DNA from: Streptococcus cristatus AS 1.3089
GTDB lineage: Bacteria; Bacillota; Bacilli; Lactobacillales; Streptococcaceae
Direction: 5' to 3'
Assembly (NCBI RefSeq): GCF_000385925.1
Contig: NC_021175.1
Span: forward strand, 248,501 to 312,500
DNA length: 64,000 nt
This document shows positions 9,064 to 34,865 of the stretch, one piece after another. Numbering within the stretch: the first letter of the stretch is position 1; every line of letters starts with the position of its first letter. The notes below the pieces were generated by a model. It saw nothing but the letters and a program-made list of their open reading frames with translations. It was not told where the DNA came from and ran no database searches. The translations under genes and the position numbers were made by a program.

Positions 9064-9090
9064 TTAGCACTCTTGCAAAAAGAGTGCTAA
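9064..9090. promoter_or_regulatory. CIRCE operator 1
   Basis: Perfect TTAGCACTC-N9-GAGTGCTAA, the HrcA-binding consensus, upstream of the hrcA -35 box. The stem is followed by six Ts, so it may also terminate the ClbS-like transcript. Confidence 0.97.
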
Positions 9091-9146: not shown

Positions 9147-9173
9147 TTAGCACTCGAGGTGTTAGAGTGCTAA
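9147..9173. promoter_or_regulatory. CIRCE operator 2
   Basis: A second perfect TTAGCACTC-N9-GAGTGCTAA, placed at the transcription start region downstream of the -10 box. Two CIRCE copies bracket the promoter, consistent with tight HrcA autoregulation. Confidence 0.97.
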
Positions 9174-29298: not shown

Positions 29299-29393
29299 AC
29301 TCATTATTTTATCAAGTAAATGAATCTTTCTAAATTAATGTGGAGGAAGTTTTTTGATTTTTAAAAAATTATGTAAATTTTTACTCAAACCTA

Positions 29394-29447
29394 TTGACAA
29401 GCGGGAAAGAAGAGTGTATAATTACAACTGTAAACAAAAAGTTTACA
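29394..29447 (+). promoter_or_regulatory. clpL promoter with an inverted repeat at the start site
   Basis: Consensus TTGACA (29394-29399), 17-bp spacer and TATAAT (29417-29422). TGTAAAC-N5-GTTTACA (29429-29447) begins at the predicted +1, so it may be an operator or a 5-prime protective hairpin. Neither a CIRCE nor a clear CtsR heptad repeat is visible here, although clpL is a heat-shock gene elsewhere. Confidence 0.75.
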
Positions 29448-29491
29448 CAGAATTTATTCAGAAGATGAGGAAATAGCCGGAAGGCGATTAT

Positions 29492-29725
29492 TTTTGGGAG
29501 GATTAAAAATTATGTAAAATTATCTTCTTTTGAATGAGATTTGATTCACTCATAAAAACAGAGACTGACTCAGTCTTGATTTTTGGAAATCGAATAAGTT
29601 ATGTAAAGTAATAGATAGGAGAAGATCTCCCAAATGAATATTTATAGTGGATAAGGAAGAGATTTCTTATCTGAAATTTTGGTAAAAATAAAAATTATGT
29701 AAAGAAAAATATATAAAAGTGAGGC
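29492..29725 (+). promoter_or_regulatory. clpL leader with three AUG-UAA modules
   Basis: The ~300-nt leader contains TTTTGG-N12-TTATGTAAA three times with identical internal spacing: TTTTGG at 29492, 29581 and 29677; TTATGTAAA at 29510, 29599 and 29695. Each holds an ATG directly followed by TAA, the first behind GGGAGG. Hairpins lie between modules: AGACTGA/TCAGTCT (29562-29576), GGAGA/TCTCC (29618-29630) and GATAAGGAA/TTTCTTATC (29650-29671). A related TTATGTAAA lies before the promoter at 29369. The function is unknown. Confidence 0.65.
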
Positions 29726-29731
29726 AATGCT

Positions 29732-31843
29732 ATGAACAACAATTACAACAATTTTAACAGTATGGATGACCTTTTCAACCAACTCATGGGGCGTATGGGT
29801 GGCTACAATAGCGAACACCGGCGTTACTTGATCAATGGTAGAGAGGTCACACCGGAAGAGTTTGCTCAGTACCGAGCTACTGGAAAGCTCCCTGGTCAAA
29901 TGGCTAGCGAACAGGATTTGCAAGCTGGAGCGCATGGGCCTAAGCAAGACGGCATTCTGGCTAAGCTAGGTCGCAATCTGACCCAAGAAGCGCGTGAAGG
30001 CAAGCTGGATCCAGTCATTGGACGCAATAAGGAAATCCAAGAAACAGCGGAAATCCTTTCCCGCCGGACCAAGAATAATCCAGTTCTGGTCGGAGATGCA
30101 GGTGTCGGAAAGACCGCTGTCGTAGAAGGATTGGCTCAGGCTATCGTCAATGGTGACGTGCCAGCGGCCATCAAGAACAAAGAAATTATTTCTGTTGATA
30201 TTTCTGGCTTGGAAGCTGGTACTCAATATCGTGGTAGCTTTGAAGAAAATATCCAAAACTTGGTCAATGAAGTCAAGGAAGCCGGGAATGTTATCCTCTT
30301 CTTTGACGAAATCCATCAAATTCTGGGTGCAGGATCTACTGGCGGAGACAGTGGTTCTAAGGGACTGGCAGATATTCTCAAACCAGCGCTTTCGCGTGGT
30401 GAACTGACTGTTATCGGGGCTACTACTCAGGACGAGTACCGCAATACTATTCTCAAAAATGCAGCTTTAGCTCGTCGTTTCAATGAAGTTAAGGTCAATG
30501 CACCGTCTGCTGAGGATACTTATCAGATCCTTCGAGGTATTCGGGACCTGTATGAAAAGCACCACAATGTCATCCTGCCGGATGAAGTGCTGAAAGCGGC
30601 TGTGGATTACTCTGTTCAGTATATTCCACAACGGAGCCTGCCAGACAAGGCCATTGACCTGGTCGACGTGACTGCTGCCCACCTGGCAGCCCAGCATCCA
30701 GTAACCGATGTCCATGCGGTTGAACATGAGATTGCTGAGCAAAAAGACAAACAGGAAGCAGCTGTTGAGAAAGAAGATTATGAAGCAGCTCTGAATGCCA
30801 AGACCCGCATCGAAGAGCTGGAAAAGAAAATTCAAAACCACACCGAGGATATGAAGGTAACGGCGACAGTCAACGATGTAGCTGAGTCTGTTGAGCGGAT
30901 GACGGGAGTGCCGGTATCTCAGATGGGTGCCAGCGACATTGAGCGCCTCAAGGGCATGAATGACCGCCTCAAAGCCAAAGTTATTGGCCAAGACAAGGCT
31001 GTAGAAGCTGTGGCTAGAGCCATCCGCCGTAACCGTGCAGGCTTTGACGAAGGTAACCGTCCGATCGGCAGCTTCCTCTTCGTTGGTCCGACAGGGGTTG
31101 GTAAGACTGAGTTGGCTAAGCAACTGGCTCTGGATATGTTCGGTACCAAGGATGCTATCATCCGTCTGGACATGTCTGAGTACTCTGACCGCACCGCTGT
31201 TTCCAAGCTGATTGGTACGACTGCTGGTTATGTCGGCTATGATGACAACAACAACACTCTGACCGAGCGCGTGCGCCGCAATCCATACTCTATCATTCTC
31301 TTGGATGAGATTGAAAAGGCTGATCCACAAGTGATTACCCTTCTCCTTCAAGTTCTGGATGATGGACGTTTGACGGATGGTCAAGGGAATACAGTCAACT
31401 TCAAGAACACGGTTATCATTGCAACTTCTAATGCTGGCTTTGGCTATGAAGCAGGCTTGGAAGAGGATGCAGAAAAGCCTGAGCTGATGGATCGACTCAA
31501 ACATTATTTCCGCCCAGAGTTCCTCAATCGTTTCAATGCAGTGATCGAGTTCTCTCATCTCAAGAAAGAAGATTTGATGGAAATTGTGAATCTCATGCTG
31601 GTTGAAGTAAATCAAACTTTGAGCAAGAAGGAAATTGATCTGGCTGTATCTGATGCAGCTAAGGAGTTCCTGCGTGATGCTGGTTATGACCAAGTCATGG
31701 GTGTTCGTCCACTCCGCCGTGTCATCGAGCAGCAAATTCGTGACAAGGTGACTGACTTCCACTTGGATAACCTAGATGCTAAGCACCTGACTGCAGATAT
31801 GGAAGATGGAACTTTGGTGATCCGTGCAAAATCAGCAGAATAA
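29732..31843 (+). CDS. clpL: Clp protease ATPase subunit / chaperone ClpL
   Basis: The 703-residue HSP100 protein starts [18 protein letters not shown], the Asn/Gln-rich ClpL N-terminus with no Clp N-domain or zinc finger. AAA1 has GDAGVGKT and AAA2 has GPTGVGKT; a UVR-like coiled region ([19 protein letters not shown], middle part) sits between them. No ClpP-binding loop motif is obvious. ClpL is a stress disaggregase important for heat and penicillin tolerance in streptococci. GTGAGG precedes the ATG. It is monocistronic, and repeat copy 3 follows. Confidence 0.95.
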
Positions 31844-31873: not shown

Positions 31874-32047
31874 GAGGCTAGGACTTTTGTCCTAGCCTCT
31901 TAATTGTCTTTGGATTGTCGAGTAAGACGCAGTGGTTGAGTGGGCCCTACTCCGCTGATTTCATCGGCTTTTACAGCCCTACTCAACTGTGCGGAGGTGA
32001 GACGACGAAATCGAATTCTAACGAATTACCGATTTCTGTCCCACTCT
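31874..32047 (+). repeat. Intergenic three-stem repeat, copy 3 (first loop inverted)
   Basis: Full 174-bp copy between convergent clpL and the AraC gene. Its first hairpin reads GGACTTTTGTCC where the others, in the same orientation, read GGACAAAAGTCC, so the loop is inverted relative to the stem. It ends in GTCCCACTCTC followed by six Ts. Confidence 0.9.
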
Positions 32048-32150
32048 CTTTTTTAGTCAATCCTGTCAAAGTCATTTCCTTGCCTCGCAGGAGCATTTTT
32101 GGTCTTGGTGTCCAGATAAAAAATCTCCAATCATCTGGCTGGAGATTGTC

Positions 32151-34329: not shown

Positions 34330-34352
34330 TATAATAGTCAAAGATAGTCAAT
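34330..34352 (+). promoter_or_regulatory. CtsR operator and promoter of ctsR-clpC
   Basis: TATAAT (34330-34335) is followed directly by the heptad direct repeat AGTCAAA (34336-34342), GAT, AGTCAAT (34346-34352), matching the CtsR consensus RGTCAAA-N3-RGTCAAA with one mismatch. TTTCAA at 34307-34312 is a possible -35. This indicates autoregulation by CtsR. Confidence 0.88.
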
Positions 34353-34406: not shown

Positions 34407-34865
34407 ATGGGCATCAAAAATACCTCGGATAGTATAGAAGAATATATCAAAAGAATTTTGGCGCAGGCAGGCATGGTCGAGCTGAAGCGCAGTGAGTTAG
34501 CTGATGTTTTTCAGGTAGTTCCGAGTCAGATCAATTATGTGATTAAGACACGCTTTACAGAGAGTCGGGGCTATATCGTGGAGAGCAAGCGCGGTGGCGG
34601 TGGCTATATCAGGATTGGTAAGATTGAATTTTCCGATCGGCACCAGATGCTGTCTGATTTGTTGACCAATGTTGGTGAGTCGCTCAGCCAGCCAATTTTT
34701 TCAGATATTTTGCAGCTGCTCTTTGATGAAAAAATTATCAGCCAGCGTGAAGGAGATTTGCTCCTAGCGAGTGCCAGCGATGCTGTCTTGGGGACAGATG
34801 CTCCGAGGATTCGAGCCAGAATGTTACGGAAAATTTTGCAGCAATTAGATAGAAAAGGAAATTAA
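34407..34865 (+). CDS. ctsR: Transcriptional repressor CtsR
   Basis: The 152-residue class III heat-shock repressor has the winged helix with SQINYVIKTRF and the glycine-rich wing ESKRGGGGYIRI (about residues 60-71) that reads DNA and senses heat. It represses clp genes through heptad repeats, one of which lies at its own promoter. clpC starts 4 bp downstream. Confidence 0.97.
   Translation: MGIKNTSDSIEEYIKRILAQAGMVELKRSELADVFQVVPSQINYVIKTRFTESRGYIVESKRGGGGYIRIGKIEFSDRHQMLSDLLTNVGESLSQPIFSDILQLLFDEKIISQREGDLLLASASDAVLGTDAPRIRARMLRKILQQLDRKGN

Follow-up and report, generated by a model that had tools for sequence, protein, structure and literature searches.

Repeat copies and promoter at the clpL locus

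The clpL gene of Streptococcus cristatus AS 1.3089 (29732..31843, plus strand) encodes a ClpL disaggregase of 703 aa with 99% identity to Streptococcus cristatus ClpL; positions given here and below are those of the window, that is, the whole 64-kb stretch of DNA that was analysed. Its promoter, TTGACA-17-TATAAT (29394..29422, plus strand; TTGACA at 29394, TATAAT at 29417-29422), matches the consensus at 12 of 12 positions, and a stem-loop, TGTAAAC-AAAAA-GTTTACA (29429..29447, plus strand), is predicted at the 5' terminus of the mRNA, directly after the predicted start. The initial annotation had described three occurrences of TTTTGG-N12-TTATGTAAA in the leader and a fourth copy ahead of the promoter. 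All are present, the three at 29492, 29581 and 29677 and the fourth with its TTATGTAAA core at 29369, as are the hairpins said to separate the copies in the leader and the GGGAGG ahead of the first leader copy.

All four copies are on the plus strand. The pre-promoter copy (P copy; AAAAATTATGTAAA, 29364..29377) has its TTATGTAA string starting 25 bp before TTGACA. Leader copy 1 (AAAAATTATGTAAA, 29505..29518) stands behind the GGGAGG, leader copy 2 (29594..29607) has its TTATGTAAA core at 29599, and leader copy 3, the last copy (AAAAATTATGTAAA, 29690..29703), lies immediately 5' of the clpL ribosome site. In the 64-kb window, TTATGTAAA is found at these four places only (29369, 29510, 29599 and 29695), all at most 335 bp upstream of clpL, against 0.66 occurrences expected, and none of 100 shuffles reached four. 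In the genome of this strain, WAAAAWTATGTAAA is matched exactly at four sites, three of them at clpL; allowing one mismatch gives 27 matches against 20 for a control, which is little excess. Gene names used below for glmS, tkt, msrAB and the ulaA-like, SPFH-like and AraC-type genes are presumed from the look of the sequences.

Conserved placement of the motif upstream of clpL

Upstream regions of clpL came from three sources: named loci (the best 80 of 455), 30 loci from a search of 197 streptococcal genomes and 60 fetched regions, the last picked so as to omit most mitis-type genomes. These 170 regions, in which the named and other sets overlap, include 145 that are distinct over 300 nt. Motif-type regions were defined by the presence of at least two TTATGTAA copies together with the absence of any CtsR-like site at up to two mismatches. 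Because the copies were located by exact TTATGTAA, its eight columns are invariant by construction, and the A-run and the placement constitute the sole independent conservation. The conserved repeat unit is AAAATTATGTAA.

The P copy is located upstream of the -35 box in all 45 distinct motif-type regions. The distance from its TTATGTAA to TTGAC is either 13-15 bp (28 cases; 1, 15 and 12 at 13, 14 and 15 bp, respectively) or 25-27 bp (17 cases; 3, 12 and 2 at 25, 26 and 27 bp) and takes no other value, so that the two narrow bands are about one helical turn apart. Four A residues 5' of TTATGTAA are fixed in the pre-promoter copies (39 of 39 distinct 50-mers), and the flanks vary. A further copy is placed at +1 in 16 of the 45 regions, and the last copy lies 22-39 bp before clpL in 39 of the 45; it has been lost in three regions (L034-L036) with the clpL start intact. 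Orientation is almost uniform, with 168 forward copies against 2 reverse copies over the 145 regions, the latter belonging to L062 (Leptotrichia) and L251.

Motif-type regions occur in S. cristatus, S. sanguinis, the parasanguinis/australis type, the anginosus group, S. massiliensis and a few further species. Conservation in close relatives, which had been suggested as a check on the repeats, did not tell against them: the core is kept in several lineages, though the TTTTGG-N12 part is not. Exact TTTTGG-N12-TTATGTAAA is present in 21 of the 45 motif-type regions, almost exclusively from the sanguinis/cristatus lineage, and the remaining 24 lack it.

The motif is also largely restricted to this gene. 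Exact WAAAAATTATGTAAA was found at 73 places in the 197 streptococcal genomes, and at least 60 of these, spread over 41 genomes, precede clpL by less than 600 bp and share its strand; 60 of 73 is a lower bound, since the clpL coordinates used do not cover every genome with a match. The reversed control of WAAAAATTATGTAAA gave 16 places in the same genomes by our own tally. In a sample of 335 genomes of the family, the motif followed by a TTGAC/TATWAT promoter was found in 36, once in each, and the reversed control in none. Motif status was assigned to the unfetched genomes by exact-pattern search only; G027 and G041, whose upstream regions show copies, were also counted as motif genomes.

These distributions bear on the earlier suggestion that the repeats are remnants of tandem duplication. 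Copies in S. cristatus AS 1.3089 do share up to 34 nt at 71-74% identity; however, several lineages keep copies with different spacings and differing flanks, and at least 60 of the 73 genus-wide exact sites are at clpL, which makes such an origin without function hardly credible.

Evidence for the repeats as probable DNA operators

The initial annotation favoured a translational role, in which AUG-UAA elements in the leader hold ribosomes and thereby control the stability or translation of clpL mRNA. Consistent with this proposal, GGGAGG precedes leader copy 1, S. sanguinis and the anginosus group have a comparable string ahead of their first leader copy, and a ribosome-site-like string is found before the ATG in 26 of 63 mid-leader copies. 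Yet no such string precedes any of 39 last copies, 17 start-site copies or 48 pre-promoter copies, and in S. cristatus AS 1.3089 itself leader copy 1 is the only in-transcript AUG-stop behind a ribosome site. Moreover, the pre-promoter copy is outside any mRNA begun at the clpL promoter and is nonetheless kept, with helical phasing, in 45 of 45 regions, and the conserved A-run would be superfluous for a start-stop element. With most leader copies devoid of a ribosome site, we consider a start-stop sensor very improbable.

A related proposal places the action of the copies in the RNA, as an attenuation device or an RNA-binding array in which each copy comes after a terminator-like hairpin. Hairpins with short U-runs do lie ahead of the leader copies in S. 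cristatus AS 1.3089, and the fold of the leader has a z of -2.74, with 3 of 100 shuffles equally good. Against it stand the pre-promoter copy and the start-site copies that overlap +1; besides the 5' stem, no cross-lineage hairpin was seen by eye at matching places in the motif-type leaders among 17 folded, and an Rfam search of the leader (29430-29731) returned no match up to E 5. We therefore regard action in RNA as likewise a very improbable account of the whole set, and the leader copies by themselves could still act in that way.

In the 5-kb stretch searched against Rfam, two matches were obtained, both below the gathering score and both outside the clpL leader. A sub-threshold match at 31875-32060 of the window is to S35, at E 9e-5 and 29.6 bits (gathering score, 69). 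The translation of this stretch resembles one near 23.6 kb of the window, suggesting that it is perhaps an intergenic repeat.

The invariable presence of the P copy (45/45), its helical phasing and the conserved A-run instead favour the alternative also raised in the initial annotation, namely that the repeats bind a protein. On this placement evidence, we conclude with considerable confidence that the repeats are DNA operators.

Probable replacement of CtsR sites by the motif at clpL

Among the 145 distinct clpL upstream regions, 45 contain the motif only, 85 a CtsR site only, one both and 14 neither. The sole region with both, L096 of S. infantis, combines CtsR-like sites with a single stray motif copy. 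CtsR operators (tandem heptamer RGTCAAA-N3-RGTCAAA) and the motif are different in sequence and, save for that region with its stray copy, mutually exclusive in the 145 upstreams; they lie at the same gene and in the same two places. Of the 81 CtsR-type upstream regions examined for site placement, 76 had a paired promoter and five did not. Among the 76, all but one have a CtsR-like site beginning 21-25 bp before TTGAC (75 regions), and the other has one beginning at 15 bp. The final CtsR-like site begins 46-60 bp ahead of clpL in 65 of the 81. Motif copies occupy these same two places, ahead of the -35 box and near the start of clpL.

In agreement with the initial annotation, clpL of S. cristatus AS 1.3089 is devoid of obvious CtsR and CIRCE operators. 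No CtsR site with up to three mismatches is present between glmS and clpL. The CIRCE element of HrcA, likewise a heat-shock operator, is absent in front of clpL; TTAGCACTC-N9-GAGTGCTAA, with up to three mismatches allowed, occurs in the window only at 9064 and 9147. Both of these are perfect CIRCE elements (9064-9090 and 9147-9173).

CtsR itself is found in 196 of the 197 genomes. In S. cristatus AS 1.3089, ctsR (34407..34865, plus strand) lies 2.6 kb downstream of clpL and carries a CtsR-like site, AGTCAAAGATAGTCAAT, at its promoter (34336..34352, plus strand). CtsR-like sites with 0 or 1 mismatches are present at ctsR and at a gene that, from the look of its sequence, we take to be clpP, although 0-1 mismatch matches also arise elsewhere in this genome by chance. 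CtsR is kept, with sites at ctsR and clpP, and the motif stands in the CtsR places at clpL, a pattern to be expected had the regulator changed at a single gene; the regulator of the operators probably replaced CtsR there at matching positions. A reading of the repeats as diverged CtsR sites was rejected on the ground that ordinary CtsR sites persist at ctsR and clpP.

Passages of one published account state that clpL is under CtsR control in many streptococci and report control of clpL by SirR in S. pneumoniae (PMC7447016), and passages of another describe CtsR operators preceding S. thermophilus clpL and an effect of Rgg0182 on clpL (PMC3199253). A regulon reconstruction in lactic acid bacteria includes S. 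sanguinis SK36, and there is no mention of clpL in its main text (PMC3616900). In S. anginosus, clpC, clpX and a putative ctsR are described as essential, in passages that contain nothing on a clpL operator (PMC12464299). Among the matches listed from the open-licence literature, judged by titles and the beginnings of abstracts, neither this motif nor the protein introduced below was described, and none of those listed for the motif string concerned clpL by title.

A small HTH protein co-occurs with the motif

S. cristatus AS 1.3089 has a gene for an 80-aa helix-turn-helix (HTH) protein at C1:1252918-1253157, and the parasanguinis, australis and L109 loci have a gene for an HTH-like protein of 81-83 aa directly 3' of clpL. 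Close homologues of the HTH protein (E below 1e-30) were found in 38 of the 197 genomes, comprising 37 of the 43 motif genomes and 1 of the 154 others (37 genomes with both, 6 with the motif only, 1 with the HTH protein only and 153 with neither). The one genome with the HTH protein only (G108) is 83% complete and 4% contaminated, and the match falls within a 541-aa frame. In the 335-genome sample, all ten further motif-promoter genomes have the HTH protein. Its gene is 2659-2662 bp downstream of the motif-promoter pattern (from which, rather than from clpL, these distances were taken) and on the same strand in nine of them, and on another contig in the tenth. These ten genomes look alike, with promoters of the parasanguinis/australis type, and motif/HTH genomes in general are not independent, since HTH and motif share history. 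One genome (G308) has the HTH protein and no match to the strict motif-promoter pattern. In the one S. gordonii genome examined, which belongs to the same ClpL branch, neither the motif nor a close HTH homologue was found, an absence made less sure by the 90% completeness of that genome.

Linkage to clpL is also frequent: in 27 of the 37 genomes, the HTH gene follows clpL on the same strand at a distance of up to 15 kb, and in 18 of them at up to 315 bp. In the remaining ten, which include S. cristatus AS 1.3089 and its eight closest relatives, the gene has a different location or lies on a separate contig. The S. cristatus AS 1.3089 gene lies between the presumed msrAB and tkt genes, and the order in G157 is clpL-HTH-tkt, suggesting that clpL has moved away from the HTH gene. 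The AraC-type gene adjoining clpL was discarded as a candidate regulator, as the anginosus, parasanguinis, australis and massiliensis loci examined showed no such gene next to clpL.

No Pfam or NCBIfam family matched the HTH protein above cut-off, and its database relatives are nameless or 'hypothetical' (e.g., Spaf_0389). An AlphaFold model built with 30 sequences (mean pLDDT 86.9, pTM 0.79) predicts a four-helix HTH fold. Foldseek placed it nearest, among PDB folds, to the DNA-bound N-terminal domain of AcrIIA15 (query TM-score 0.60) and to Aca11 (0.59-0.67). The first eight rows have a probability of 1.00, query TM-scores of 0.57-0.67 and identities of 16-27%, with weak E-values of 0.05-0.22 and none below 0.001; the profile match to AcrIIA15 has an E of 0.16. 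The predicted fold of the candidate is thus like those of AcrIIA15 and Aca11, small HTH DNA-binding proteins that act as autorepressors. Unlike them, the HTH genes described here are chromosomal streptococcal genes, often beside clpL, and DNA binding by their products is putative. Perfect palindromes of 14 and 16 bp are present near the -35 region in two of six HTH gene promoters examined, and none of at least 10 bp was found there in the other four. The full operator is missing from the HTH gene's own promoter: the sanguinis and cristatus types have only TATGTAAA in common with it, and two other HTH promoters bear a palindrome that differs from the operator. Any autoregulation of the HTH gene through the clpL operator would depend on TATGTAAA, the sole likeness, in two lineages.

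The six motif genomes with no close HTH homologue (four of the anginosus group, G041 and G090) still have conserved operators, which implies that the HTH protein cannot be the sole binder. The anginosus loci have clpL followed by the ulaA-like gene, in contrast to clpL-HTH-ulaA-like in G132 (S. sanguinis type), and no remnant of an HTH gene is visible in them. At the S. massiliensis locus, where the motif is kept, no HTH ORF was found within 1.5 kb downstream. All six genomes have only shorter paralogues, about 46-50% identical to the HTH protein and mostly of a single type that is widespread in streptococci and lies beside the SPFH-like gene. Either a paralogue or another protein serves in these genomes, or the HTH gene does not encode the binder.

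A rival reading is that in all motif genomes the operators bind a different protein, for instance the paralogue of about 74 aa or an unrelated regulator, with the HTH gene as a passenger or co-regulator. The presence of the paralogue in the six genomes, the residues S42, K52 and N55 that it has in common with the HTH protein, and the operators conserved in the anginosus group with no HTH gene are all compatible with this idea. However, the paralogue is also present in many genomes with CtsR sites and no motif at clpL, and no TTATGTAA was found in the 220 nt before it at the seven loci inspected. We consider this explanation unlikely, but it deserves weight. For the clpL-linked HTH protein as the binder, co-occurrence and linkage on the one hand and the six exceptions on the other leave the chances about even.

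Probable repeated exchange of the clpL upstream region

On a ClpL protein tree of 29 rows, the motif label requires five changes, at least four of which are forced by well-supported branches. S. sp. DD10, which has the motif, groups with S. vestibularis, which has CtsR-like sites, and the neighbours of clpL differ between lineages. Recombination between the coding and upstream sequences would equally give these changes of label. The upstream region has likely been exchanged repeatedly, with or without the gene.

One record in the upstream set, L062, is assigned to the fusobacterium Leptotrichia hongkongensis and encodes a ClpL that is 89% identical (best segment) to streptococcal ClpL, suggesting either transfer between phyla or a mislabelled contig.

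Proposed model for the control of clpL

Based on these data, we propose a plausible scheme in which AAAATTATGTAA repeats would serve as operators for a clpL-specific transcription regulator, one that took over from CtsR in several lineages, the HTH protein or its paralogue being the likeliest regulator; we hold this to be reasonably likely. One operator would adjoin the -35 box on its upstream side, always on one face of the helix, and further operators would be arrayed through the leader, with usually one near the clpL start; 16 of 45 regions have a copy at +1 as well. The regulator would most likely be the 80-aa HTH protein, or else the widespread paralogue of about 74 aa. Given this placement, bound molecules could block the promoter or loop over it, and a repressor therefore seems a better guess than an activator, with heat as the presumable signal. 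More tentatively, and with somewhat less than even confidence, we suggest that this is a one-gene heat-shock circuit that had escaped description, in which a phage-repressor-like HTH protein replaced CtsR at clpL, in the same two places and more than once.

ClpL is described as a potent stand-alone disaggregase (PMC11006417). If the proposed scheme is true, whole streptococcal lineages uncouple clpL from CtsR and give it a small switch of its own. The locus would then be a clear instance of one operator replacing another at corresponding positions, and a small family of hypothetical HTH proteins would receive its first proposed function.

Other features of clpL leaders

The 5'-end stem-loop is predicted in 43 of 45 motif-type, 77 of 80 CtsR-type and 7 of 13 other leaders, with differing stem sequences. 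A leader peptide precedes clpL in CtsR-type relatives (e.g., L045, L054 and L092) and also in the parasanguinis type (L071 and L087). Peptide endings of the form EKPEI[IV][RP]RVA recur in the mitis, infantis and oralis types, and MLFP..RxLIDKR... in the parasanguinis type; KPEIIRRV was read by eye in an S. vestibularis leader too. In L045, the 3' end of the leader ORF overlaps a hairpin that is followed by a T-run.
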